Virus record (IMG/VR): IMGVR_UViG_3300036859_000066 | Span: 1-39,326 of that record | Direction: 5' to 3' (one strand) | Origin: a virus | DNA: 39,326 nucleotides | Shown here: positions 18,529-35,644 of the stretch, piece by piece | How positions within the stretch are numbered: position 1 is the first letter of the stretch | How the letters are laid out: every line of letters begins with the position of its first letter | Notes under the pieces: generated by a model | Told to the model about the DNA's origin: nothing | What the model saw: the letters and a program-made list of their open reading frames with translations, nothing else | The model's database searches: none | Program-made: the position numbers and the translations under genes

Positions 18529-18749
18529 ACTGTATTTCCCGCAGCGTCCTGCCACACCACGGGGCTAATCGTCTTCACCCAGATGGGAAGGTTTAGGGTC
18601 GTATCGAAGTAGGTGCGGCCGATCCACAAACGTGCAATGGGCCTGTTTGCCGTCGTGCCGCTCTGCTGTACCGCGAACAGAATCAAGAACGCCTGCGCGA
18701 ACCAGCCAACGTCCGGCGGGTCGGCTGGCGGTCCGATTACTTGGCTCAC
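18525..18749 (-). CDS. Hypothetical virion-region protein, 74 aa
   Basis: A small mixed protein with a hydrophobic segment (WFAQAFLILFAVQQSG) and a beta-like C-terminus (RLWIGRTYFDTTLNLPIWV). It overlaps the gp10-like gene upstream and the GNAT-like gene downstream by four bases. It may be a small tail or neck component. No family is recognised. Confidence 0.68.
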   Translation of the reverse strand: MSQVIGPPADPPDVGWFAQAFLILFAVQQSGTTANRPIARLWIGRTYFDTTLNLPIWVKTISPVVWQDAAGNTV

Positions 18750-20197
18750 TGCGCCCTGCCGTGGACCTTCCAGGTGCCGCGTGCGATGCAGAACTTAACC
18801 GGGTCGGTCATGGAGAACCGAAAGACAAAATCCTCTGCGGAGCCACACCGACGCACTTCTACGCGGGTCAGGTACTCGCCAAGGGCACCAATGTCTATCC
18901 ACTGCTCCGGGCTGTACGAGCGCCCGCCGTCCCGCGATACCTCGACCATCAACTGCGGGTCAGAGCCCTGCCCGGTTTCCAGCCCCACGCCGGTTTCCAT
19001 TTCAAGGCGCAGGGCGTCAATCGTGAATCTGTTTCCGCCTCGCGTCAGATGGCGGGTGGCAACAATGCGCTTGATTACTGCGCCATCGTCCGAATAGGCC
19101 GAAGAATCCAGCTCGTACACCTCTGGGTTGCTCTGGCGGTAGTCCGTGATGTACGTCTTGCCGTTGATGACCAGCGAGTGCTGCCCGATGTGCCGGCCCG
19201 TCGCTGTCGGCCCCGTGGAATCCTCGCTCCAAATCTGCGTTGAGGCGTCAAAGCGCCACGTCTTGTTAGCCGAGGGGAACGTGATCTGATACATGGGGTG
19301 CCCGTCGAGCAGATACGACAGGGCCACCGCATCGCTCTTTGTTGCGTAGGCGTTGATTGCGTTCTCAACGTCTGAGTCGGAAGCGCGCTCCACGCCCCAG
19401 CCGTTGATGCGCATGACCTGCACTTGTCCCTGCGCGTTCTGCCCGAGGAAGTACAGCATGTTGTCCAGCTTGGCCCGGCTGAAGGGCGCCGCAAGGCCCC
19501 AATTCTGTGTTGCGCTAGTCACGGGAGCGAAGGGGAAATCCAGCGCCCCAATCGGTTGCCACGCCTCCAGGGTCTTGGTGCCGAACGGGACCAGATGCCC
19601 GCGATAGGTGTCAACAGCGGCCAGATTGTCTGAGGCCTGCTCCGCTGTGGCGAAGTTCGTGCCGCTCCAGGCGGTGCCGTCGTAACTGTCGCTGATGTTG
19701 AAGCGGCCGGGGTATCCGGGGTTGTCCACCACAAAACGTCCGGTGAGGCAGGTAATCGTCCGCGCCCCATCAGGAAAGTCGCTATCGCTGATAACCGCAA
19801 GCGTGCTGCTGCTGGTGTCGAATCCCGTCAGCAGATAGCCGGCCGTGCCATCAACAAACGCGAGCTGCGTTCCGTTGTCCGCCATGCTCACGTTGCCCGA
19901 CGTGGACAGGATGACGCCGGTAAACGTGGTCTGTGTGAGCAGGTCGGCCGTGACTCGGTACAGCGTGTCCCCGGCCACGATGTAGGCGTAGTTCTCGCCC
20001 TCATGAACACCCCGGATGGGCCCGTTAGGTGTCGGTGAGAGCGTCAGCCGATTGGTGAGGCCGGGGCGGCCAACAACCACCACGTTCGCCTTGTCGCCGT
20101 CGGGCCGAATCTCGAAGTAAACATTGACGCGACGTTGGGCGGTAATCGTGGCGGCTTTGGACAGCGTGCCGCTGCCCCAAAGCTGGACCGGCTCCAC
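18746..20197 (-). CDS. P22 gp10-like packaged-DNA stabilisation protein, 483 aa
   Basis: GTG 20197 directly follows the upstream stop. Repeated beta-propeller-like blades are seen in the middle (YIVAGDTLYRVTAD, MADNGTQLAFVDGTAGYLL, GRFVVDNPGYPGRFNISDSYDGTAW). The C-terminal region contains RLEMETGVGLETG...VEVSRDGGRSYSPEQW. This set of motifs and the position directly after the gp4-like gene match P22 tail-hub gp10 proteins, which plug the portal after packaging. Confidence 0.85.
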   Translation of the reverse strand: MEPVQLWGSGTLSKAATITAQRRVNVYFEIRPDGDKANVVVVGRPGLTNRLTLSPTPNGPIRGVHEGENYAYIVAGDTLYRVTADLLTQTTFTGVILSTSGNVSMADNGTQLAFVDGTAGYLLTGFDTSSSTLAVISDSDFPDGARTITCLTGRFVVDNPGYPGRFNISDSYDGTAWSGTNFATAEQASDNLAAVDTYRGHLVPFGTKTLEAWQPIGALDFPFAPVTSATQNWGLAAPFSRAKLDNMLYFLGQNAQGQVQVMRINGWGVERASDSDVENAINAYATKSDAVALSYLLDGHPMYQITFPSANKTWRFDASTQIWSEDSTGPTATGRHIGQHSLVINGKTYITDYRQSNPEVYELDSSAYSDDGAVIKRIVATRHLTRGGNRFTIDALRLEMETGVGLETGQGSDPQLMVEVSRDGGRSYSPEQWIDIGALGEYLTRVEVRRCGSAEDFVFRFSMTDPVKFCIARGTWKVHGRAQ

Positions 20198-21157
20198 CTA
20201 GGCCCCGGGCTCGAAGTATCGCGTTTCCGTTTCCGGGTACGCCGAGCGGGCGCCGGCAAGGGCCATTGTGTAATTCGCCTCAAGTTCGTTCGTCCACACC
20301 GCCCCGAACATGGGCGCGATTAGCTTGGCAAGTCCCAACACAACCGGCAGATACCAGACCTGCGGCATGTCCAGTTCGTCAGCAGCCGCCGTCATGTCCT
20401 CGATGGGCTCAAGCCATACAACGTGCAGTTTCTTGGTCACATCGGACACGCCGGCCACGTCCAGGTACAGGACGCCGTTGGTTAGCTGCGGCTCGTAGTA
20501 GACCGCCGAAGGGTCGCCGCTGGTCGTCGTGTCGGCCTTGGACGGCAGGAGCATGAATTCCTGCATCGTCATGAACCGCACGGGAACGTCGCTGTTGTCT
20601 ATATCCCGAAGCACTACGGCCTCAAGGTTGTCCGGGCGGTTGGCCTTGGTCGTGTAGTTGAAAACGTAGTTTCCCGAGGCGGCGCTGTCGCCCGTCGGGA
20701 TGCCCGTGGTAATCGTGATCGTGGAGCCCGAGGGGGCGCCGTTAATCGTCGTCCAGTGAATGTCCCCGCTGTCCAGCTCGATGCCGATGTAATCACCGCT
20801 TGAGGCGTTCGTGATCGCGCTACAGGTCAGGGTGGTATCTGCGGCAGGGCTCGCGGCAGTCAGGGTGCGGCTGTAGGTCGTTTCGGACCAATGACCGCCC
20901 GAAGGGCCCAGCGAGAATGAGTTGGTGTCTTCCTCAAAGTACAGGTCGGCCCTGCGGCGTTTCCAGAGCTTGAGCCCGGGCGCAAAATCCGCGCGGGCCA
21001 TCCACCCCTTAAGCATCATGTTCAAAAAGTCGGTAACGTCTACCGCCTCGTTCGCGTCGGGCGTACCGTTACCAGGCAGTGCGCCAATGGACTTCATGGC
21101 GAGCGAGCGGATTTTCGTCAGCGAGGTGCTGTAGGTGACAGTCCCGGATGTGGTCAC
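20198..21157 (-). CDS. P22 gp4-like head-completion protein, 319 aa
   Basis: GTG start in a GTGA overlap with the GT9-like gene. The N-terminal helical part (DVTDFLNMMLKGWMARADF) and the C-terminal segment (MPQVWYLPVVLGLAKLIAPMFG...YETETRYFEPG-like ending) resemble P22 gp4-type tail accessory proteins. These bind the portal and seal the DNA. A beta-rich Ser/Thr/Gly segment around 95-165 is inserted between them. The position between portal/capsid and gp10 fits. Confidence 0.8.
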   Translation of the reverse strand: MTTSGTVTYSTSLTKIRSLAMKSIGALPGNGTPDANEAVDVTDFLNMMLKGWMARADFAPGLKLWKRRRADLYFEEDTNSFSLGPSGGHWSETTYSRTLTAASPAADTTLTCSAITNASSGDYIGIELDSGDIHWTTINGAPSGSTITITTGIPTGDSAASGNYVFNYTTKANRPDNLEAVVLRDIDNSDVPVRFMTMQEFMLLPSKADTTTSGDPSAVYYEPQLTNGVLYLDVAGVSDVTKKLHVVWLEPIEDMTAAADELDMPQVWYLPVVLGLAKLIAPMFGAVWTNELEANYTMALAGARSAYPETETRYFEPGA

Positions 21158-22512
21158 GCGGCCCTCTTGAACTTGTTAGCCAGCACGGCCTCAACGGCGG
21201 CCCAGCAGGTATCGGCGGAAATCTGTGACTGGCACATGGCGGCCCCGGCTTCCTCGTCCTTCCAGCAATGCGACCAGTTGTGGTGAAGCCTCAGGCACGG
21301 GTAGCAATGCACCGATAGCGGCGGGGTCAACGACTCGCAATTCACCCAATCCCGACTCAGGGACTCCTTGGGCGAGTGCGACAGGAAAAGAACCTTGGGC
21401 ACTGGCCTGTGACTGGCCGCGTTAAGGACGCCGGTTTCCGGGCCAATTACGAGGTCGGCAAATTCGATAAACGCCAAGCTCTGGCGGATGCTCCACTTGC
21501 CGCACATCCTGTGAACCCGTGGCTCGCTCTCCCAGCCCGTTTCCAGAACTTCGCATTCCGGCCCGCCCACCAGAACAACATGCGCCTCGGGGCAGCTCAG
21601 GAACAGGCGCGCAATGATCTGGTCCAGATACGGCCAGTGCTTATGAACAGACGAGCCCGACAGTGACCACAGCGCCACGAACGCGCCCATCTTTGCCCGC
21701 TGCTTTCTGGCCCACTCTGTTTCCTCGGGCGTCGGGTAGAACCGCACCTGTGGGTCATGCGGCAGGCCGGCAAGCTCGTGCTGGAACTCGACGTAGTTGC
21801 GCGTCATGTACTTGCGGCGAAGTTCTACGGGCCACTCATGGTTTGCCCTGTTCGGCAGGGCCAGCCACGCGCCCTCTACCGACTCCGACAGGTTCACGAA
21901 CTTGTCAAACTTGGTGCGCTGGTAGTTCCAGAAATCCACTAGCCGCACATTCGGCACCTGATCGCGGTCAAGCACCATAAGCCTGTCGATGTTCGGGTCA
22001 TGCGTGATTACATCGGCTCCGGGGCTCTGGGCGATTACCGTAACGTGATAGCCCTGTTTCTTGAGCCCGGCCCACACACTGGACGCCTGCATCATGTCGC
22101 CGAAGGCTCCGCACCTGTACACCAGCGCGGTCTTGCCCTGCGGCTTGTCCTTGTAGCTCTCCCGGCACTTGCCCGAGGTCAGCTTCTTGTAGACCGCCAG
22201 CCCCTCGATCTTGCTAACGCAGTCCCAGATACCGTCCGGCTCGCCCTCGCCGGTTACGCACAGATGCCCGCCGGGGCGAATGACGCGCCAGTATTCGGCG
22301 TGCACCTCCGGCGCTACAACCGCATCAAAGCTTTGGTTGGCGAAGATGCGTAGGTCGTGAACGTCCTTGACCGTTACATCTGGGCTGAGCAACCGCCCGT
22401 CAATCTCTACCGGATGATCGTTGACGTGGATGAAGTGCCGGTAAAGCTTCCCGGCGATGTGCAGCACCTTGCCGCGCGTGTATTCGGGAAGTTCCCAGCG
22501 AATGTCCGTCAA
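21154..22512 (-). CDS. GT9 (heptosyltransferase-family) with N-terminal methyltransferase-like part, 452 aa
   Basis: TTG 22512 overlaps the previous stop as TTGA and has AAGGA upstream. Residues 1-105 look like part of a class I methyltransferase fold (LRIFANQSFDAVVAPEVHAEYWRVIRPGGHLCV), without a clear SAM motif I. From residue 128 the GT9 pattern appears: ALVYRCGAFGDMMQASSVWAG, a VALWSLSGSSVHKHWP segment, VVLVGGPECEVL, and ADLVIGPETGVLNAA in the donor-binding region. GT9 enzymes move heptose from ADP-heptose to LPS or to autotransporter proteins. With gmhA/hldA/hldC in the same phage, ADP-heptose is the natural donor guess. The acceptor is unknown; the neighbours are tail and neck proteins. 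Confidence 0.85.
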   Translation of the reverse strand: MTDIRWELPEYTRGKVLHIAGKLYRHFIHVNDHPVEIDGRLLSPDVTVKDVHDLRIFANQSFDAVVAPEVHAEYWRVIRPGGHLCVTGEGEPDGIWDCVSKIEGLAVYKKLTSGKCRESYKDKPQGKTALVYRCGAFGDMMQASSVWAGLKKQGYHVTVIAQSPGADVITHDPNIDRLMVLDRDQVPNVRLVDFWNYQRTKFDKFVNLSESVEGAWLALPNRANHEWPVELRRKYMTRNYVEFQHELAGLPHDPQVRFYPTPEETEWARKQRAKMGAFVALWSLSGSSVHKHWPYLDQIIARLFLSCPEAHVVLVGGPECEVLETGWESEPRVHRMCGKWSIRQSLAFIEFADLVIGPETGVLNAASHRPVPKVLFLSHSPKESLSRDWVNCESLTPPLSVHCYPCLRLHHNWSHCWKDEEAGAAMCQSQISADTCWAAVEAVLANKFKRAA

Positions 22513-22730
22513 GCGGTCCTTTTCCAAGCGGCCAGGTATGCAATGGCCTCGGCCATACGGGCCGAACACTTGGCCCTGAACCCCTCGGATTTCGGCCTGC
22601 CGCGCATGGCGTCTCCGATCTTTCTGCGCGTTTCGTCCGATTTGTTCTTTCCGGGGTTGGCGTGTCGCGCCATTGCCTCGCGCTGCTTCTGTCGGTATTC
22701 CTCAGTTCTCACATACACGCCGCGCGGCAT
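22509..22730 (-). CDS. NUMOD3-type small DNA-binding protein, 73 aa
   Basis: A basic protein with the pattern NPGKNKSDETRRKIGDAMRG and a second partial copy before it. This matches NUMOD3 motifs usually attached to GIY-YIG or HNH homing nucleases, but no nuclease domain is present. It starts in a TAATG overlap with the tail-collar gene and ends in a TTGA overlap with the GT9 gene. It may be a remnant or a regulatory DNA binder derived from a homing endonuclease. Confidence 0.72.
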   Translation of the reverse strand: MPRGVYVRTEEYRQKQREAMARHANPGKNKSDETRRKIGDAMRGRPKSEGFRAKCSARMAEAIAYLAAWKRTA

Positions 22731-23413
22731 TAACTAACCCGCTTCCAAAAATGGACAATTATGTACGGCTGCAAGTTGTTATGCGCGCCGCCGCCGCCAG
22801 TGTTCTGATTGGTGGCCGTGGCGTTCTGGTTGACCGCCGTCGCGTTCTGATTGACCGCAACGGCCGTTGCCGTGGTTTCCGTCGCTTCGGCCTCGGCCGA
22901 GCTGGTATCCAGCGTGCCGTGTTCGTAGCTCGTCGCGCCGCCCGTCGTGGCGGTTTGCGAAGTGATGATGTGGCTATGCGCGTCCTGCGTGTGCGTGTGC
23001 GCGTTCTGGGTGTGGGTGTGGGCGTCTTGGGTGTGCGTGTGCGCCGGCATTTCTGCGGAGGTCAGCGTGTGCGTCTTTGCGCCGCCCGTTTCCTCGGCCG
23101 TGTCGAATTCGGTTTGGCCGGAGTCAAGACCCACCAGCACCCGGCCGGCGCCGAACGCCTCCCATGTGCCGATGCCAAAGACCGTCGCCGGGTTGGTACT
23201 GACTACGGAGGTGTAGATGCAGCCCACCGGGTAGACGCCCTCTAGGGCTTCTTCAAGCGTGATCCCGCCGCCCTCGCCGGCTTGCGCAGCAATCGCCTGC
23301 GCTATGCGCTCCGGCGTCCATGTCCTCGCCGCAGTCCCCGTACCGGCCTCTGCCTCGGCCTGTGTTGCTACCTGCGGGGCGTTCCAGTCGAGTACGTTGA
23401 AGTTGTCTGCCAC
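22730..23413 (-). CDS. Tail-collar fibre protein with His-x-His repeats, 227 aa
   Basis: GTG 23413. The region around residues 60-110 (YPVGCIYTSV...FGIGTWEAFGAGRVLVGLD...TGGAKTHTLTSAEMPAHTH) is the tail-collar domain pattern. Residues 125-148 contain AHTHTQD/N repeats and residues 187-204 VNQNATA repeats. The protein ends with HNNLQPYIIVHFWKR, the usual C-terminus of this family. The His pairs resemble metal-binding HxH sites in T4-type fibres. It is probably a short fibre near the tail tip. Confidence 0.86.
   Translation of the reverse strand: MADNFNVLDWNAPQVATQAEAEAGTGTAARTWTPERIAQAIAAQAGEGGGITLEEALEGVYPVGCIYTSVVSTNPATVFGIGTWEAFGAGRVLVGLDSGQTEFDTAEETGGAKTHTLTSAEMPAHTHTQDAHTHTQNAHTHTQDAHSHIITSQTATTGGATSYEHGTLDTSSAEAEATETTATAVAVNQNATAVNQNATATNQNTGGGGAHNNLQPYIIVHFWKRVS
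22965..23048 (-). repeat. His-Thr-rich coding tandem repeat
   Basis: On the minus strand the tract codes four alternating HTHTQ(D/N)A / HSH units with near-identical DNA (GCGCACACGCACACCCA-like units). It lies in the collar-fibre gene just after the EMPAHTH motif. Copy number could vary in frame. Confidence 0.85.
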
Positions 23414-24234: not shown

Positions 24235-24879
24235 TTATGCGGCCTTAAGCCGCTCCTGAACGTGTTTGTTGTGAACGGACTTCCCCATCAGCTCCGCGTA
24301 GGGAACCGTGGCGTTTGCTGCCTTGGCTTCTTCATGCCATTGCGCCGCGTACTCGCAGCCCTGCGTTTCGGGCCAGCAGGGGATGCCCTGCGTGTAATGG
24401 ATTAGCTTTGCGTCCTGCGGCTTGTCGTAGCCCACAAGGTGGTTCCACTCCGGCGGCAGTGCGCCGATGACGTTGCCCTCGAAAATCCCGAACGGATCGC
24501 CGGTCTGGACAAATTCGGGCGTGAGCGCCGAACACAGGGCGTTGTTGAACACCATCACGCTGGGCCACTCAAACTGGCGGACGTTCTTAACTACGCTGAT
24601 GGGGGCGTTTGGATCGGCCGCCGCTACCAGCTTGGCAATGTCATCCAGCACGATAATGTCGGCGTCCAAGAACACCGCCATGCCCTCGTAACCGCACAGG
24701 TGCGGCACCAGGAAGCGGCTGAACGTGAACTCGGTCAGTCCCTTGCGCGTCAGCGGCAGCGTCTTCAACACCAGCGGCGTGATCGCCACCGGAACACTGG
24801 CCCGCCTCAGAATGGACGACTGGCAGACCGTGTAGGCAAGCGGCTGGCGCGGCTCGTAGCCGATGAAGACTCGAATCAT
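24235..24879 (-). CDS. GT8-like glycosyltransferase, 214 aa
   Basis: The N-terminus has MIRVFIGYEPRQPLAYTVC, typical of GT8-like transferases. The donor/metal motif FLDADII sits at 70-76, with Asp-Ala-Asp at 72-74. A conserved SVMVFNNA segment and the late HYTQGIPCW give the His of the usual HFxG-like site. It probably transfers a sugar from a nucleotide-sugar donor. The gene is in ATGA overlap with the DUF115-methyltransferase gene, forming a two-gene cassette between terminators. The acceptor is not known. Confidence 0.83.
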   Translation of the reverse strand: MIRVFIGYEPRQPLAYTVCQSSILRRASVPVAITPLVLKTLPLTRKGLTEFTFSRFLVPHLCGYEGMAVFLDADIIVLDDIAKLVAAADPNAPISVVKNVRQFEWPSVMVFNNALCSALTPEFVQTGDPFGIFEGNVIGALPPEWNHLVGYDKPQDAKLIHYTQGIPCWPETQGCEYAAQWHEEAKAANATVPYAELMGKSVHNKHVQERLKAA

Positions 24880-26426
24880 GCCGCCACCGCCACGCTGTTA
24901 GCTGAGCCCTTTTCAGAGGCAATCTTTTCCGTAGCGTCCGGCTTCTGGCAGGCGAGATAAACGGAGTTCTCGTCCACAACTGCCTCGACCACCACGAAAT
25001 ACTGCGACACCTTCTTGTGCCACCACTGCGCCGATCTAAGCGTGATGTGTGCGTTGCGGCCGTCCGGCAGGGTCTTGCCCGCTTCCTCAAGCGCAACCGA
25101 GAACACCGCCACATACCGCGCCTTAGCCGCGATGTACTTCAGCGTGTTCTCTACGCACTGTTCCTCAACGTGTTCCAGCACGTCGAAGCACGTCACAATG
25201 TCGTGAACGCCCGGTTCCGGGTTGTCCCGCCACCTGGGGTGAAACGGGTCGTAGTTCGTAACGCTGACCGGCCTGAACAGGTCAGTCAGTGACTTGCCCA
25301 GCGCACCAGACCCAGCCCCGTAGTCCATGACGGTGATGGGCCGCTTGAGCTGGTCGTAGAGCGAGAGAATCCCCCGGCCAATGGTTTCGTTTTCGTGGTC
25401 GCCCCAGAGGCCGTAGCCTCCTTGTTCGTGCAGTTGGCGCTGCATCTGTGCGTACTCATCCGTCCAGCGCCTGTCGCCAATTGCGGCCCTGATGCGCTCC
25501 TGCTGCTTGCGGTGAATCTCAAGCCAGTGGCGGTTGAGCGAGTCGCCGTGGACAACTACGTCCAAACGCCCCTCCAGCCGATCTACCCACTTGATGAACT
25601 GCTTAGCCTGATGGGCAAACCCGGGCGAGGTCAGGAACTCCCTGCCATCCGGGGTCTTGGCAACCTGGATCGCCTCGGCCCGGAATTTCTTGTAGGCGTA
25701 AAAAAAGCCGCCCTCGGCGGCTTCGTCTACGACGTATGTCCTTGGACTGTCTTCGTCCTGGTATTGCAAGCCCTCGCTTTTCTTCAGCGCCTCGGCAAAC
25801 CTCGGGTCGTCCGAGTAGATGACCGGCGGCTGCTGGTCGGTGTAGCAGGAGTCGAAGCCGTAAAACTCCATGCGGGCATAGCCCAGCATCACGGTAAACG
25901 GCATGGCCCGCAGCGGCGTCATGGTCCCGCCCACTACATAGTCGTGGCCCGGGTTGTCATAGAGCCGCTTGTGCGCCTTGATATCGGATTCATCGTCCAG
26001 CCCGTAGGCAACGAGAATCTTGGTTACGTCGTAGCCCTCAAGGTTCTTGAAGACCCCGGGATTACACACCGAGGCAACGTAATACTTGACGCACTTCTGC
26101 GGGTTTTGAACGCAGTCCTTAACCGACTCCCGAGGATCAATCAGAATACATGCGTTGGGCATGATGCCGTTCTCAATCAGGTAGTCGTGAGTGTTGTTTG
26201 AGGTCAGAATGAACTCGCCAGCCTCGTGGCGCTTCTTCAGCTCCGGCAGCGTCTTCAGCAGCGACGGCCCACCGGCTACAAAAATCAGTGTCCCGCCGTG
26301 GGACTTCAGCTTACTGAACACCGGGACACCATTGGTCCCGTTCGCCTCGATATTGGCGATTACTTCAGTTGTCGGTATTGGCCCGCCCTTCACATCTTCA
26401 GCGGGTTTGAAGCCGTCGTCTGACAT
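24876..26426 (-). CDS. Maf/DUF115-like glycosyltransferase fused to a class I methyltransferase, 516 aa
   Basis: Strong SD AGGAGG before ATG 26426, directly after the U tract of terminator 26436-26471. Residues 45-195 match the DUF115/MptE-like domain of Maf flagellin glycosyltransferases: LIFVAGGPSLLKTL, SNNTHDYLIENGIMP, CILIDPRE, VVGGTMTPLRAM and ARMEFYGFDSCY. Residues 363-470 form a SAM methyltransferase, with DYGAGSGALG as motif I and FDVLEHVEE downstream. Maf proteins glycosylate flagellin in bacteria. Here the fusion suggests that a sugar is both transferred and methylated. An intrinsic-terminator-like sequence lies inside the coding region at 25700-25723. Confidence 0.87.
   Translation of the reverse strand: MSDDGFKPAEDVKGGPIPTTEVIANIEANGTNGVPVFSKLKSHGGTLIFVAGGPSLLKTLPELKKRHEAGEFILTSNNTHDYLIENGIMPNACILIDPRESVKDCVQNPQKCVKYYVASVCNPGVFKNLEGYDVTKILVAYGLDDESDIKAHKRLYDNPGHDYVVGGTMTPLRAMPFTVMLGYARMEFYGFDSCYTDQQPPVIYSDDPRFAEALKKSEGLQYQDEDSPRTYVVDEAAEGGFFYAYKKFRAEAIQVAKTPDGREFLTSPGFAHQAKQFIKWVDRLEGRLDVVVHGDSLNRHWLEIHRKQQERIRAAIGDRRWTDEYAQMQRQLHEQGGYGLWGDHENETIGRGILSLYDQLKRPITVMDYGAGSGALGKSLTDLFRPVSVTNYDPFHPRWRDNPEPGVHDIVTCFDVLEHVEEQCVENTLKYIAAKARYVAVFSVALEEAGKTLPDGRNAHITLRSAQWWHKKVSQYFVVVEAVVDENSVYLACQKPDATEKIASEKGSANSVAVAA
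25700..25723 (-). terminator. Intrinsic-terminator-like sequence inside a coding region
   Basis: On the minus strand the codons for EAAEGGFFY (residues 235-243 of the DUF115 protein) form an eight-pair stem AAGCCGCC/GGCGGCTT with a GAG loop, followed directly by seven U. The stem is almost the same as that of the terminator at 13608. Two Phe codons are TTT TTT although TTC is common in this GC-rich genome. Termination here would leave a DUF115 fragment without the methyltransferase. Confidence 0.7.
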
Positions 26427-26435
26427 GTGCCTCCT

Positions 26436-26471
26436 AAAAAAGAACCCCCGGGGCCGTGAAGCCCCGAGGGT
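26436..26471 (-). terminator. Intrinsic terminator after the capsid genes
   Basis: On the minus strand an 11-base stem (one mismatch) with a six-base loop is followed by UUCUUUUUU. It lies between the stop of the 150-aa structural gene (26486) and the start of the DUF115 gene (26426). The downstream SD overlaps the end of the U tract, so there is no room for a separate promoter after it. Confidence 0.88.
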
Positions 26472-26485
26472 CCGAGTTACAGCGG

Positions 26486-26951: not shown

Positions 26952-27926
26952 TTAGGCCAGCGAGTCCCACTTCAGGACTCTGCATTCCGCCGCCTGGGTG
27001 TGAGCCAAGCCAAAGCCGCCCAAGTAATACCAGGCGACGCCCTTTGAACGACCGTAGTCAGTCGGAATCTTCCCGCGCATTTCCTCGGGGACGGCAATTG
27101 CTTCCGCCACCGTGTCAGCGCCGAAGAAGAAAATCCAATCAGACTTGGCCTGCGCCCACGCCGTGCCGGTCAGACCGCCATTGGTCGTGATGCCCTTGGC
27201 GATGTTGGTCTGCTCGACATAGCGCACATTCTCGTAACGGCCGACTTCGCCGTTTTTGATCATGTTGAACCCCTCGGACGTATACTGCTTGATCGTTTCG
27301 AGGTTGTTCTTGAAGGCGCGCAGAGTGGTCGGCCACGCCAGAGCGTAGTAGTCGTCACTGACGTAGGGCGGGATGTTCCGCTCCTTCATCGTGTCAACAA
27401 TGCTCTTTGCGTGGTTGTTGCTGAACGCGATGGTGTTCGTACCCGTCACCGTACCGTTGGTGTAGAGGGTGATCGAGCCCGTGTCCGTGCCGCTCGACGC
27501 GATTGCGCGAAGCGCGCAAGTGTCGAACTGCTGGAACGCTTCGCGGTCAAGCGCCTTCACAACATCATCCTTCAGCGCCTTGTCGATGATCATCTCAACG
27601 TCAAACTTCGAGAGGTCATCGAGCTTGCCCGTGTAGGGCACGGAGTTGCCCAGCTCGCGGATCGTCAGGGTGCCCTGCGCGATCGTGAAGTTGGTTTCCG
27701 GGATGGTGTTGGTTTCATTCAGGCGAGTGCCGCTCACCGAAACGTTGTTCACAACGTCCCAAGTGAAGGTGTCGCCCTTTTTCTTGCCCTGCTGGGTGGC
27801 GTCCTTGATGTCGCAGAACTGGCGGAACTTGCTGAGAGGCTGAACAGCCTTCCGCAGCTTGTTGCTCAGATTGCGCGAATAGAGGAAGCCGCCCAGAGAG
27901 TCAGTGGCCCAAAGTTGGCCTGACAT
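26952..27926 (-). CDS. Major capsid protein (N4-gp56 type), 324 aa
   Basis: Start at ATG 27926 with GGAGTAA upstream. Recognisable segments are LYSRNLSNKLRKAVQPLSKF near the N-terminus, KKGDTFTWDVVNNVS, ELGNSVPYTGKLDDLSKFD, and the C-terminal SDWIFFFGADTVAEAIAVPEEMRG with DYGRSKGVAWYYLGGFGL. (Longer motifs are given in pieces.) These fit the N4-gp56-type major capsid family rather than P22 gp5 itself. It follows the scaffold gene directly. Confidence 0.9.
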   Translation of the reverse strand: MSGQLWATDSLGGFLYSRNLSNKLRKAVQPLSKFRQFCDIKDATQQGKKKGDTFTWDVVNNVSVSGTRLNETNTIPETNFTIAQGTLTIRELGNSVPYTGKLDDLSKFDVEMIIDKALKDDVVKALDREAFQQFDTCALRAIASSGTDTGSITLYTNGTVTGTNTIAFSNNHAKSIVDTMKERNIPPYVSDDYYALAWPTTLRAFKNNLETIKQYTSEGFNMIKNGEVGRYENVRYVEQTNIAKGITTNGGLTGTAWAQAKSDWIFFFGADTVAEAIAVPEEMRGKIPTDYGRSKGVAWYYLGGFGLAHTQAAECRVLKWDSLA

Positions 27927-31772: not shown

Positions 31773-33319
31773 GTGTAGGCCGGCTCCAATTCGTGCGATT
31801 CGTAGATGACCGGAGGGCTGGCCTCCATGTCGTAGATGCGGGCGAATGCGTCGATCAGGTCTTTGTATGACCCGAACGGGAAATAGTGGGCCTGAATCTT
31901 CAGGTCTTCCGATACGTCGTAAATCTTGCGCTCGCCGTCGAGGCGCTTGATGGGCCGGGATATGCGATGGCCCCAGCCCTCGTCCTGCGCCCGCCGTTGC
32001 AATGCCGTCAGGCGCTTGTCGTCGGTCGGGTACGGCAGGTAAATGCGGTGATTCTTCAGGTCCGGCACTAGCCGCTGCACGCGGTCTACCTTGCTGCCGT
32101 CGCCCTCGCGGGGCCACGCCAGCTCAGTAAGCGGCATGCTCACGCGCTCAACCGCTATGCGCTCGCGGAAGTAGTCGAAGTCAGCCTGTGCCCCATAAAT
32201 CTCATAGCCGATCTGGAGCGTCTGGATGCCGTTGGCCCTGTACCATTTCTGGTACAGCTCCTTCATGCGCTGCCAGCGCTCCTGCAAGTCCATGCGGTGG
32301 TTGTAGCCATCCAGCAGGTACTTGTTGCCGGCGTAGTCCAAACCAACTAGCGCCATTGCGGTCTTGGCGCTGTCCTTCTTCCTGCTCCGTGCGGGGTCTA
32401 TCAGCAGGTAGCAGTTGAGAACCTCGGGGCGCACCTCGTATTCCCGGAAGTCCTCAACGTCAAACATCCGCTGTTTGCCGGCCAGCGGGTTTTGCAACAT
32501 CTGGCAACTAACCGTTGCCTCGCCCTGCGTCTTGACCTTTTCGGCCCAAAGCTCGGGGGAGAACAGCACCGGGTTGCCGTCGATCTTCCCGTTATCGGTC
32601 GCAGCGTGTAGCCGTACCTTCGCAGCCCCGCGCTCGATGATGGCCTGATAGGTGTCCGCGTAGCTGTACCGCGTGCCAATGTGCCACTTGCGCCCGCCGT
32701 CTTTGCCGAGGTTGTCCGACAACTCCCAGGACTCGGTTGTCTTCTGAATCTGCTCCGGCGTGCTAACCGACTCTTTCGTAACTACGTCGTCGTAGATCAA
32801 CAGCCCGAAGTGGCGTGACGTGGGCTGGCCGTCTACAAGGCCGTGCGCCTCTAGGCTCGCCTCTTTCGGGTTGGCCGAACGCTTGAGTATCAGCCCGCCA
32901 TCCAGCGACCATGCCGGCGCTTCGTCGTGCGGGTTGGCCCAGATAATGTCCGGGAATGCCGCCCTCAGAATCTCGTTTGTCTCAAACTCGCGCTTGATCT
33001 GCCCAAGGAACGCCTTCGCAATCGGCTTGGTGTGGCTGAAGATGCCAACGGTCAGGTTGGGGTCGCGTAGCAACTCCTGAATCGCCCCACCAAACGTGAT
33101 GATTGTGGACTTGTAGTGTTCGCGCGCCCACAGGTCCAGGTATCCATCGGGCTCGGCCTCTACCTCTCTACACCGGGCGTACAGCCACGGGTGCAGCAGG
33201 TCTGTGCGGCCCAGGGCCTTTACAAGCAGGTAGTAGCGGTCGAGTTCACAGAGAACCCTGACCCCGGTTAGAGCGGCCCCGCGCTTATCAATCTCGTCCC
33301 AATACTCAAAGACTTCATT
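31769..33319 (-). CDS. terL: Terminase large subunit; start codon not found
   Basis: The ATPase and nuclease parts are clear: WAREHYKST (Walker-A-like) near 33110, LLIYDDVVTKES as the Walker-B region, then LLIDPARSRKKDSAKT, GYEIYGAQADF and SYKDLIDAF supplying nuclease acidic residues. The frame stays open upstream to a TAA at 33395-33397, yet no ATG, GTG or TTG occurs in frame before TTG 33073, which lies after the ATPase motif. The upstream amino-acid sequence (NEVFEYWDEIDKRG...CELDRYYLLVKAL) looks like a genuine TerL N-terminus. I have set the boundary at 33319, where the homing-endonuclease gene overlaps; the true start is unresolved. Confidence 0.88.
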   Translation of the reverse strand, partial: NEVFEYWDEIDKRGAALTGVRVLCELDRYYLLVKALGRTDLLHPWLYARCREVEAEPDGYLDLWAREHYKSTIITFGGAIQELLRDPNLTVGIFSHTKPIAKAFLGQIKREFETNEILRAAFPDIIWANPHDEAPAWSLDGGLILKRSANPKEASLEAHGLVDGQPTSRHFGLLIYDDVVTKESVSTPEQIQKTTESWELSDNLGKDGGRKWHIGTRYSYADTYQAIIERGAAKVRLHAATDNGKIDGNPVLFSPELWAEKVKTQGEATVSCQMLQNPLAGKQRMFDVEDFREYEVRPEVLNCYLLIDPARSRKKDSAKTAMALVGLDYAGNKYLLDGYNHRMDLQERWQRMKELYQKWYRANGIQTLQIGYEIYGAQADFDYFRERIAVERVSMPLTELAWPREGDGSKVDRVQRLVPDLKNHRIYLPYPTDDKRLTALQRRAQDEGWGHRISRPIKRLDGERKIYDVSEDLKIQAHYFPFGSYKDLIDAFARIYDMEASPPVIYESHELEPAYT

Positions 33320-33854
33320 GAGGCTTAGCGCGTGCCCCGGATAGCATTGCGCGGGATAGGTTTTTTCTGTGCTCGTCAGAGAATTTTCTTCCCTTTAGCG
33401 CCGCCGCGATCTTCGCCCTGTGCTCTGCCGACTTGGGCTTGCGGGCGGCCAATTTGAACGCCTCGGACCTTGGGCCGCGCCCGAATTGATTGCCGCGCAT
33501 TCGCTCCGCGAGGCGGGCCTTGTGCTCTGGCGTGTGGCGATAGCCAAGAGCGCCGTCCCCGCCATCAGTAAGATTTAAGAGTCTCGCCCCGGTCTTCCTG
33601 TAAAAAGAAATCAGTTGCCGCTCTGTTTGGCCCCAAACACCGAACTGCGGCGGGGCCAACACCACGGCCCGCACACTCTCGCCACGAGCCCGCAAAGAGC
33701 GAATCCATCTATGAACCGGGGTCTTGCCGGAGGCGCTATTGCCAAAATGCCGCGTGAGCCGAACGCCTACCGGGCGTATCGTCTGACCGACGTACCGAAT
33801 CTCGTATTTGGATGCCGCCGTCAGCCCGTAGACCCAACAACTATTTGCTTTCAA
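33315..33854 (-). CDS. GIY-YIG homing endonuclease with NUMOD3 motifs, 179 aa
   Basis: Start taken at TTG 33854 with GAGG four bases upstream; another TTG at 33878 is possible. WVYGLT...IRYVGQT gives the GIY-YIG pair at residues 8-23, followed by an Arg in RLTRHF, a Glu in GQTERQL and an Asn in LLNLTDGGDG. Three NUMOD3-type motifs follow (HTPEHKARLAERMRG, KSAEHRAKIAAALKG, FSDEHRKNLSRAMLSG). It overlaps the hldC stop and the first TerL codons. It is a selfish homing gene placed exactly at the 5' end of terL. Confidence 0.92.
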   Translation of the reverse strand: MKANSCWVYGLTAASKYEIRYVGQTIRPVGVRLTRHFGNSASGKTPVHRWIRSLRARGESVRAVVLAPPQFGVWGQTERQLISFYRKTGARLLNLTDGGDGALGYRHTPEHKARLAERMRGNQFGRGPRSEAFKLAARKPKSAEHRAKIAAALKGRKFSDEHRKNLSRAMLSGARAKPQ

Positions 33855-34275
33855 GCAGCCTCGTTGTCGAATGGCCAACGTGGTACGGCAGCACCAGCGC
33901 CCTGCCGGCGTATTGCCTGCCGGCGATCTGCTCGGGCTGGTAGTCGCCGCCCTTCACCAGCACATCCGGCAGAACTAGCCCAATCAGCCGCTCCGGCGTG
34001 TCCTCGCTGAAAGCCGCAACCGCGTCCACGCAGCGCAACTCAGACAGCACCGCCATGCGATCTGCCAGCGTGTTGATGGGCCGGCCCGGCTTGAGCCTGC
34101 CCGTTGATTCGTCGTCGTTTACCGCGACAATCAGCGCATGGCCCAGGTCGCGGGCGGCCTGCAGATACCGGATGTGCCCGACGTGCAGCAGGTCGAACAC
34201 CCCGTTAGTCATCACAATCTTCCAGCCGAACACACGGGCCGCATTGACGTAGGCCAGCAGCTCAGGCTCGGTCAC
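33841..34275 (-). CDS. hldC: D-glycero-beta-D-manno-heptose-1-phosphate adenylyltransferase, 144 aa
   Basis: The nucleotidyltransferase motif [10 protein letters not shown] is at 25-34, with [12 protein letters not shown] and [15 protein letters not shown] in the usual places and a C-terminal HSTTRLLE. This is the RfaE2/HldE C-terminal type. It transfers AMP from ATP to heptose-1-phosphate to give ADP-heptose. The gene is separate, not fused to the kinase as in enteric HldE, and overlaps hldA by four bases. Its stop lies within the start region of the GIY-YIG gene. Confidence 0.95.
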
Positions 34276-35084
34276 AGGCCCAGCTCGGCCATGGTGACTG
34301 TGGCCGCCCCAAGCTTGCCAACCTTGATGCCGGCGGCCTTGTTCGCCAAATAGGCCGCCTCAGACATGCTCGCGCCATCGGCCAGCATCACGGCCATAGT
34401 CGCAATGACCGTATCGCCCGCCCCGGTTACGTCGTACACCTCGCGGGCTTGAGCGGGCAGATGCAGCGCCGGCTTGCCGCGCTCGATCAGCGTCATGCCG
34501 CTCTCACCGCGAGTGACGAGCAGGGCCGTCAGGTCAAGTTCTTCAACCAAGCATTCGCCCTTGCGAGCAATGTCGGCCTCATCGCGGCACTTGCCCACGT
34601 ACACCTCAAACTCGGACAGATTCGGCGTGAGCAGCGTCGCCTCCTCATAGCGTCCGTAGTCATCGCCCTTGGGGTCTACCAGCACGGGCTTACCAGCCGC
34701 CATCTCGATCATCTGCGCCACATCAACCAGCGTGCCCTTGCCGTAGTCCGACAGGATCACAACGTCAGCGTCGGGCAGTGCTGCGCGGTACTCCGCCAGC
34801 AGCGCCTTGCGGTCAAACTCTAACGGCCGCTCGAAGTCCAGCCTGATTAGCTGCTGATGCCGCGACATGACGCGCAGCTTGCGTATCTGCGGGCCGAAGT
34901 CGCCCAGCAGGGTTACGTCTGCGCCCAGCGCCTTGACGTTTGCCGCCACGTTAGCGGCCCCGCCCGGCCTAGTCTCCGTGTGCTGCACCAGCACCACCGG
35001 GACAGGGGCCTCGGGCGATATGCGCTCAGTTGCCCCGGTCCAATATTCGTCCTGCATCACGTCGCCAACAACCAGCACGTTCAC
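34272..35084 (-). CDS. hldA: D-glycero-beta-D-manno-heptose-7-phosphate kinase, 270 aa, shortened
   Basis: Start GTG 35084 in a GTGA overlap with gmhA. PfkB-family signatures: [10 protein letters not shown] at 22-31, [10 protein letters not shown] at 41-50, [23 protein letters not shown], and the catalytic DVTGAGDTV near residue 230. Against the E. coli HldE kinase as I remember it, about 28 residues are missing between LLGDFG (59-64) and [19 protein letters not shown]. Everything else aligns well. It would phosphorylate the C1 position of heptose-7-phosphate. Whether the shortened enzyme is active is open. Confidence 0.93.
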
Positions 35085-35644
35085 AGCCCTAGCGCCGCCT
35101 CGATGTGCGCGCACAGGGCGTGCCCGATGAACTCGTGCGCCTCCTGGATGCGGGCGGTTACGTTGCTGGGGACGCAGACAGCGGCGCGGCAGAACTGACG
35201 GACCTCGCCGCCATCGCGCCCAAGCAACCCCACAACCGGCATCCCGATATCTAGCGCCGCCTTGGCGGCCTCAACAATGTTCGGCGAATTGCCAGAAGTA
35301 GACAGGACCACAAGCAAATCGGCCTCGGTCCCAAGCGCGCGTAGCTGGCGGGCGAACACTTGGTCATAGCCGTAATCGTTGGCTATGGCCGTCAGCGCGG
35401 AGGTGTCAGTGGTAAGCGCGATGGCGGCCAGCGGCGGGCGGTCGTGCACAAACCGGCCGGTCAGCTCCGCAGCAAGGTGCTGCGCGGCGGCGGCCGAACC
35501 GCCATTGCCGCAGAGGAACAACGCGCCCCCTGCGTTCTTAAGACAGCCCACCATCTGGCTGGCAACCTGTCTGAATGGAAGGTCCAGCCCGTCCATTTCC
35601 TTGAACAGCGCCACATGCTCGGCTAGTTGCTGGCTGTATGTCAT
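35081..35644 (-). CDS. gmhA: Sedoheptulose-7-phosphate isomerase GmhA, 187 aa
   Basis: The SIS-fold motifs are complete: [18 protein letters not shown] at 43-60 with the catalytic-type Glu60, STSGNSPN at 115-122, and QEAHEFIGH at 167-175 with His170. GmhA converts sedoheptulose-7-phosphate to D-glycero-D-manno-heptose-7-phosphate, the first step of ADP-heptose synthesis. It sits just downstream of the TerS candidate with ATGA overlap and is the first gene of the cassette. Full length for the family. Confidence 0.96.

Follow-up and report, generated by a model that had tools for sequence, protein, structure and literature searches.

A GT9-fold glycosyltransferase in the capsid and neck gene block of a podovirus-like lineage, with a recurrent ADP-heptose supply cassette

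Protein heptosylation has a precedent in the BAHT family, in which TibC binds ADP-D,D-heptose as donor and contacts the beta-phosphate through Thr226 and Lys230 (PMC4358343). Among phages, glycosylation of capsid and tail proteins by phage-encoded glycosyltransferases has been described for mycobacteriophages (PMC12363180, citing Freeman 2023). Here we compare with such systems a gene from a window of 39,326 bases, meaning the whole stretch of DNA analyzed, which is the single IMG/VR virus record IMGVR_UViG_3300036859_000066.

The encoded protein resembles the lipopolysaccharide (LPS) heptosyltransferases WaaC and WaaF (CAZy GT9) in its GT-B fold, the catalytic Asp of its GD motif, its KxW lysine, its TG loop, and its co-occurrence in one genome with genes of the ADP-heptose pathway, but it is about 12 to 15% identical to them, carries ETGxxN instead of DTGxxH, and belongs to a family that is fused to a methyltransferase and encoded in a capsid block rather than in an LPS locus. 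With TibC/AAH it shares a GT9-like catalytic core, a Ser/Thr-xxx-Lys phosphate motif (S287-xxx-K291, resembling Thr226-xxx-Lys230 of TibC), four conserved cysteines near the C terminus, and the expected donor, ADP-D,D-heptose (PMC4358343). In contrast to TibC/AAH, the phage system is without an autotransporter substrate, its cysteines (403/406/416/427) are spaced unlike those of the four-Cys iron finger of TibC (339/342/358/370), and the BAHT N-terminal beta-barrel was not recognized in the phage protein, where a methyltransferase (relatives) or its remnant (window) is found instead.

Likenesses within phages are looser. GT9-like proteins of uncultured Caudovirales in BFVD (RfaF-like and Aah/TibC-like) have the same fold and are 12 to 16% identical. 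Cyanophages S-CAM1 and P-SSM2 also bear ADP-heptose pathway genes (GmhA/HldE), but they are of other phage types, and no relative of this GT9 was found in the phage collection, tblastn of the protein against its 50,697 records having returned no matches. Mycobacteriophages Che8, Corndog, and Myrna likewise encode transferases modifying capsid and tail proteins, and we liken them by function, not sequence; their hosts are different, and they are not known to carry a heptose supply cassette (PMC12363180).

Fold and active site of the GT9 protein and decay of its methyltransferase part

The gene occupies 21154 to 22512 on the minus strand and encodes a predicted GT9-fold glycosyltransferase (approximately residues 124 to 452 of the 452-residue form) preceded by a decayed methyltransferase remnant. 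Its ORF is open from a GTG at 22569 to 21154, and 22512, a TTG overlapping the upstream ORF's stop codon (TTGA), is a plausible start given that homology sets in at about 22503. The earlier note had placed a GT9 gene here, and although the match by sequence is weak (Pfam Glyco_transf_9, PF01075, 19.3 bits against a gathering cut-off of 22, E 7.6e-4, residues 254 to 386; 21.6 and 15.8 bits in two relatives), the gathering score being a detection threshold and not a biochemical criterion, the assignment was confirmed by an AlphaFold model and by a PDB fold search led by GT9 enzymes.

A protein search returned 8 relatives, and a search with their alignment raised the number of encoding IMG/VR contigs to at least 155, from which 80 were retrieved; among the matches listed, relatives are 39 to 57% identical to the window protein. 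The model built from a 54-sequence alignment (pLDDT 89.4, pTM 0.87), which replaced a mediocre one from 7 sequences (pLDDT 70), has a GT-B fold nearest to WaaC/WaaF, and its top PDB matches are GT9 members (E 1e-12 to 1e-6), with GT9 3TOV first, then WaaF (1PSW) and WaaC (6DFE/2H1H), followed by TibC (4RAP/4RB4). Because at least 155 contigs encode relatives and the fold search ranks GT9 enzymes first, the GT9-like family is real and not a chance match. On the strength of the predicted structure, the window protein is very probably a GT9-fold glycosyltransferase, and by analogy with other GT9 enzymes it would be predicted to act with inversion.

All 54 sequences keep G135, G138, D139, S287, H290, K291, E359-T360-G361, and the four cysteines. 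D139 aligns with the catalytic Asp (WaaC D13) and K291 with the donor Lys (WaaC K192); in a profile-sequence alignment these two residues and the TG loop fall on the GD, K, and DSG of WaaF, but profile alignments to single E. coli Waa proteins have low probabilities by themselves, and the residue-fold claim rests on the structure search. The donor loop reads ETGxxN, with S/T replacing N in 4 sequences, against DTGxxH in WaaC; TG is kept, E stands for D and N for H, and donor identity therefore cannot be read from the pocket.

In relatives, the N terminus is an intact class I methyltransferase (Methyltransf_11, 1e-9 to 3e-11) that scores 284 to 307 bits against a model of the fused domain. The window copy (22190 to 22503, minus strand; bounds approximate, from the alignment) scores 44 bits; its motif I reads HIAG in place of DLGCG (DxGxG), the SSHLLEH and YLPH..GANPDHKHDF regions are lost, and the motif I and SAM-binding core that define class I SAM methyltransferases were not found in it. 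What had been taken for a methyltransferase-like part does have methyltransferase ancestry, but it is a decayed remnant and not an intact domain, almost certainly nonfunctional to judge by its sequence. One subgroup (L100, L132, L140, L153, and L170) carries the methyltransferase as a separate gene of 172 to 173 amino acids upstream of a GT9-only gene, and these split versions score 292 to 296 bits against the fused-domain model; methyltransferase and GT9 belong together in either arrangement.

Position of the GT9 gene in the late gene block

The cassette half of the minus-strand late block consists, in order, of GmhA-like, HldA-like, and HldC-like genes, a NUMOD3 ORF, TerL, portal, a gene in the scaffold position, and the major capsid protein (MCP) that defines the lineage (26952 to 27926; phrog_1357 and MCP alignment). 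Beyond it, on the same strand, lie an MptE-like domain with a C-terminal methyltransferase (24876 to 26426; PF01973, 2.6e-14; PF13489, 4.7e-8), a GT8-like gene (24235 to 24879; PF01501, 3e-6), a 248-residue protein, a Gp10_C collar/fiber-like protein (22730 to 23413; PF21939, 1.8e-33), a 73-residue NUMOD3-type homing-endonuclease-like ORF abutting the GT9 start (22509 to 22730; PF07460, 3.8e-4; phrog_314), GT9, a gp4-like head-completion/neck gene (20198 to 21157; PHROG match and synteny) that in relatives is the syntenic downstream neighbor of GT9, and head-closure Hc3 (18746 to 20197; phrog_578, 5e-98). The tail-collar fiber and gp4/gp10 neighbors described in the earlier note were borne out, and to these we add the NUMOD3, GT8-like, and MptE-like/methyltransferase genes that also lie between MCP and GT9. 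The GT8-like gene is a rival user of activated sugar and the MptE-like/methyltransferase gene a rival transferase; neither had a full-length relative in the fetched loci.

As a test independent of the GT9 gene, viral contigs were searched with the MCP alignment, and the closest MCP relatives (80 loci) were taken. GT9 is present in 42 of these 80 and in all 30 whose sequence continues downstream of the MCP for more than 6 kb, some of the 30 being near-duplicates, and the order MCP ... GT9, gp4-like, Hc3 is maintained in most loci. The same position is seen in prophage regions of two Paraburkholderia genomes (L119 and L120, which look intact; Paraburkholderia sp. C35 and P. rhynchosiae) and in contigs of Nevskia and Sulfuricaulis MAGs. 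Isolated phages with 49 to 52% identical MCPs (Escherichia phages PTXU04 and HelliStehle_Bas95; Vibrio phages 219E41.1 and 1.232.O) have no GT9 in the MCP-neck region. In this podovirus-like lineage of bacterial viruses of soil and freshwater, GT9 is a core gene placed between MCP and neck genes, and its constancy within the capsid/neck block hints that it serves the virion.

Several further features of these genomes are recorded here in their own right. A contig of a Deltaproteobacteria MAG carries two GT9-like genes near the MCP (L124:3228-5758). NUMOD3 homing-endonuclease-like ORFs at 33315 to 33878 and 22509 to 22730 directly adjoin the heptose cassette and the GT9 gene, respectively. At 33073 to 33334 (minus strand), TerL homology continues upstream for about 87 residues before the first in-frame ATG/GTG/TTG, and no canonical start can be seen near the expected N terminus; interruption by the NUMOD3 ORF was rejected, TerL homology being unbroken up to 33334. 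An ORF on the early strand (657 to 1580, plus) contains a long low-complexity stretch rich in Ala, Asp, and Tyr with AAADAAYAAA repeats, and its homologue in G004 is shorter. No Rfam families were found in the window.

ADP-heptose supply genes and their link to the transferase

The heptose cassette that the earlier note had seen at 33841 to 35644 on the minus strand is genuine. It comprises a GmhA-like sedoheptulose-7-phosphate isomerase (35081 to 35644; SIS_2, 2e-27; TIGR00441, 1e-52, 177.9 bits against a cut-off of 209), an HldA-like heptose-7-phosphate kinase (34272 to 35114; TIGR02198, 350.1 bits, above the equivalog cut-off of 345), and an HldC-like heptose-1-P adenylyltransferase (33841 to 34275; TIGR02199, 164 bits against 181.5; phrog_7878, 9e-29), the isomerase and adenylyltransferase matches being strong but below cut-off. 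The window HldA is missing about 20 residues after residue 75 compared with longer phage homologues, a gap common to 4 of 6 compared relatives. Neither GmhB nor HldD was found in the window; among the 18 records with both cassette and GT9, GmhB occurs in 3 of the 17 relatives, and HldD at cut-off in none of the 18. The window cassette would therefore require host GmhB and would yield the D,D form.

Of the 11 relatives found through GT9 that reach 40 kb or more, 5 carry HldA (G004, G006, G037, G040, and G045) and 6 had none detected, so GT9 need not be accompanied by the cassette. The public phage collection has HldA-like genes in 31 of its 50,697 records. Of 50 kinase-bearing records obtained with kinases of this lineage as query, 11 also encode the GT9 family (E < 1e-100), a co-occurrence that is biased because the query kinases came from the lineage itself. 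GT9 shares 4 bp with the HldA gene in L207 and 35 bp with the gene of a bifunctional HldE in L265 to L267; in L203 the kinase lies between portal and MCP, and in many lineage members, as in the window, the cassette is directly upstream of TerL. Because the cassette occupies several places in the late block, HldA-GT9 adjacency in any one case may be due to chance. In the kinase tree, the lineage is strongly clustered (6 changes against 22 in shuffles), which is compatible with a single origin followed by losses; independent acquisitions, considered at first on a count of 13 changes, were dropped once relabeling of same-lineage fragments brought the count to 6.

The earlier note had proposed supply and transfer modules 11 kb apart in one late operon. 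A functional link between them is supported because the cassette recurs in 5 of the 11 long relatives and HldA or HldE overlaps GT9 in two divergent groups, making a supply-plus-transfer system plausible. The single operon is doubtful, as a strong terminator-like hairpin (26442 to 26473, minus strand; 14 pairs, 10 of them GC, with a T run) lies between the two, with the cassette-to-capsid genes on one side and the MptE-to-GT9 genes on the other.

In other records, heptose genes are found in other company. In L020 (930-6336), L023 (4714-9340), L200, L205, and L208 they belong to a recurrent cluster that also includes radical-SAM/SPASM enzymes, TPP-dependent enzymes (E1/transketolase-like or TPP_enzyme_N), and in most cases a GT2, a grouping that resembles a phage route to an unusual, modified heptose. 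In L113 (7195-12609) and L115 (5945-11787), corresponding to G037 and G042, HldA, GmhA, HldC, and GmhB have a thymidylate-synthase-like gene and the gene of a 5-hmdU DNA kinase (HMUDK) in their vicinity, with a TET-associated glycosyltransferase in L115, and sugar-hypermodified DNA is possible there.

Donor, acceptor, and alternative readings

The reading that we favor, tentatively, is a virion-protein heptosyltransferase fed with ADP-D,D-heptose, donor and acceptor not being independent of each other in this estimate. The GT-B-fold enzyme of the GT9 family has a constant place among the head/neck genes of the lineage; GmhA, HldA, and HldC, together with GmhB of the host or, in three relatives, of the phage, would raise the ADP-heptose pool, and phages without the cassette would draw on that of the host. 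What would follow, in most relatives, is methylation of either the sugar or the acceptor by a fused or neighboring SAM methyltransferase, a step that the window's phage has lost. ADP-heptose is the probable donor, and a virion protein seems a somewhat better than even choice of acceptor, which we infer over host LPS because GT9 is constantly linked to the capsid/neck block.

It is possible, but rather unlikely, that the GT9-fold enzyme uses another donor, such as a UDP- or GDP-hexose, and that the cassette feeds the GT8-like or MptE-like enzyme in the window or GT2, GT4, or the TET-associated glycosyltransferase in relatives. The 6 long relatives with GT9 and no detected HldA would fit this, as would the ETGxxN donor motif in place of DTGxxH and the cassettes that come with their own GT2/radical-SAM/TPP, GT4, or hypermodification genes: 9 of the 18 records with cassette and GT9 carry such possible sugar users (GT2 in six, GT4 in one, DNA-hypermodification genes in two). 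GT2, GT4, and HMUDK were nevertheless not found in the other 9, several of which are fragments, and there the remaining candidates are GT9 and, in the window, the GT8-like and MptE-like genes; moreover, HldA or HldE overlaps GT9 in two groups, and among solved structures whose donor is known, those nearest in fold are ADP-heptose enzymes.

An LPS heptosyltransferase that adds heptose to the host LPS core, and so blocks re-adsorption or superinfection, appears unlikely. Modification of LPS by phages is a known strategy, the fold is that of WaaC and WaaF, and the weak NCBIfam match is to LPS heptosyltransferase III (2e-4). Presence in every testable MCP-selected locus at a fixed place between capsid and neck genes is, however, unlike typical accessory conversion genes, and the cassette is without the HldD epimerase, which produces the L,D form found in LPS core heptose.

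Universal presence in the head/neck block would also suit a structural or moonlighting neck protein that retains the GT9 fold but has lost activity, a reading made highly unlikely by the invariance of the catalytic Asp, Lys, and loop residues in 54 diverse sequences and by the co-occurrence of ADP-heptose genes. Decoration of phage DNA against restriction is the least probable, for although the G037 and G042 cassettes lie near HMUDK and a thymidylate-synthase-like gene (that of G042 by resemblance only), and G042 also has the TET-associated glycosyltransferase, the window and 15 further records with cassette and GT9 have no HMUDK, no DNA-modification genes were detected among the tested window ORFs, and GT9 is linked to the capsid block rather than to hypermodification genes.

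Heptosylation of virion proteins from ADP-D,D-heptose could be carried further, to a lineage that obligatorily heptosylates, and in most members also O-methylates, its own capsid/neck proteins through a dedicated methyltransferase-GT9 enzyme, many members with their own ADP-D,D-heptose supply, as an integral step of virion maturation; this stronger form we regard as doubtful. A literature search, most subscription journals lying outside its scope, found no phage combining heptose supply with a capsid-block GT9.

Phage glycosyltransferases are, to our knowledge, common and usually accessory-looking, their donor and acceptor not identified, whereas here a glycosyltransferase is a constant component of the capsid/neck block across a whole lineage, and recurrent supply genes suggest its likely donor. 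The Paraburkholderia prophage regions may render the system testable and, if true, virion heptosylation would add a new type to the known modifications of phage particles.
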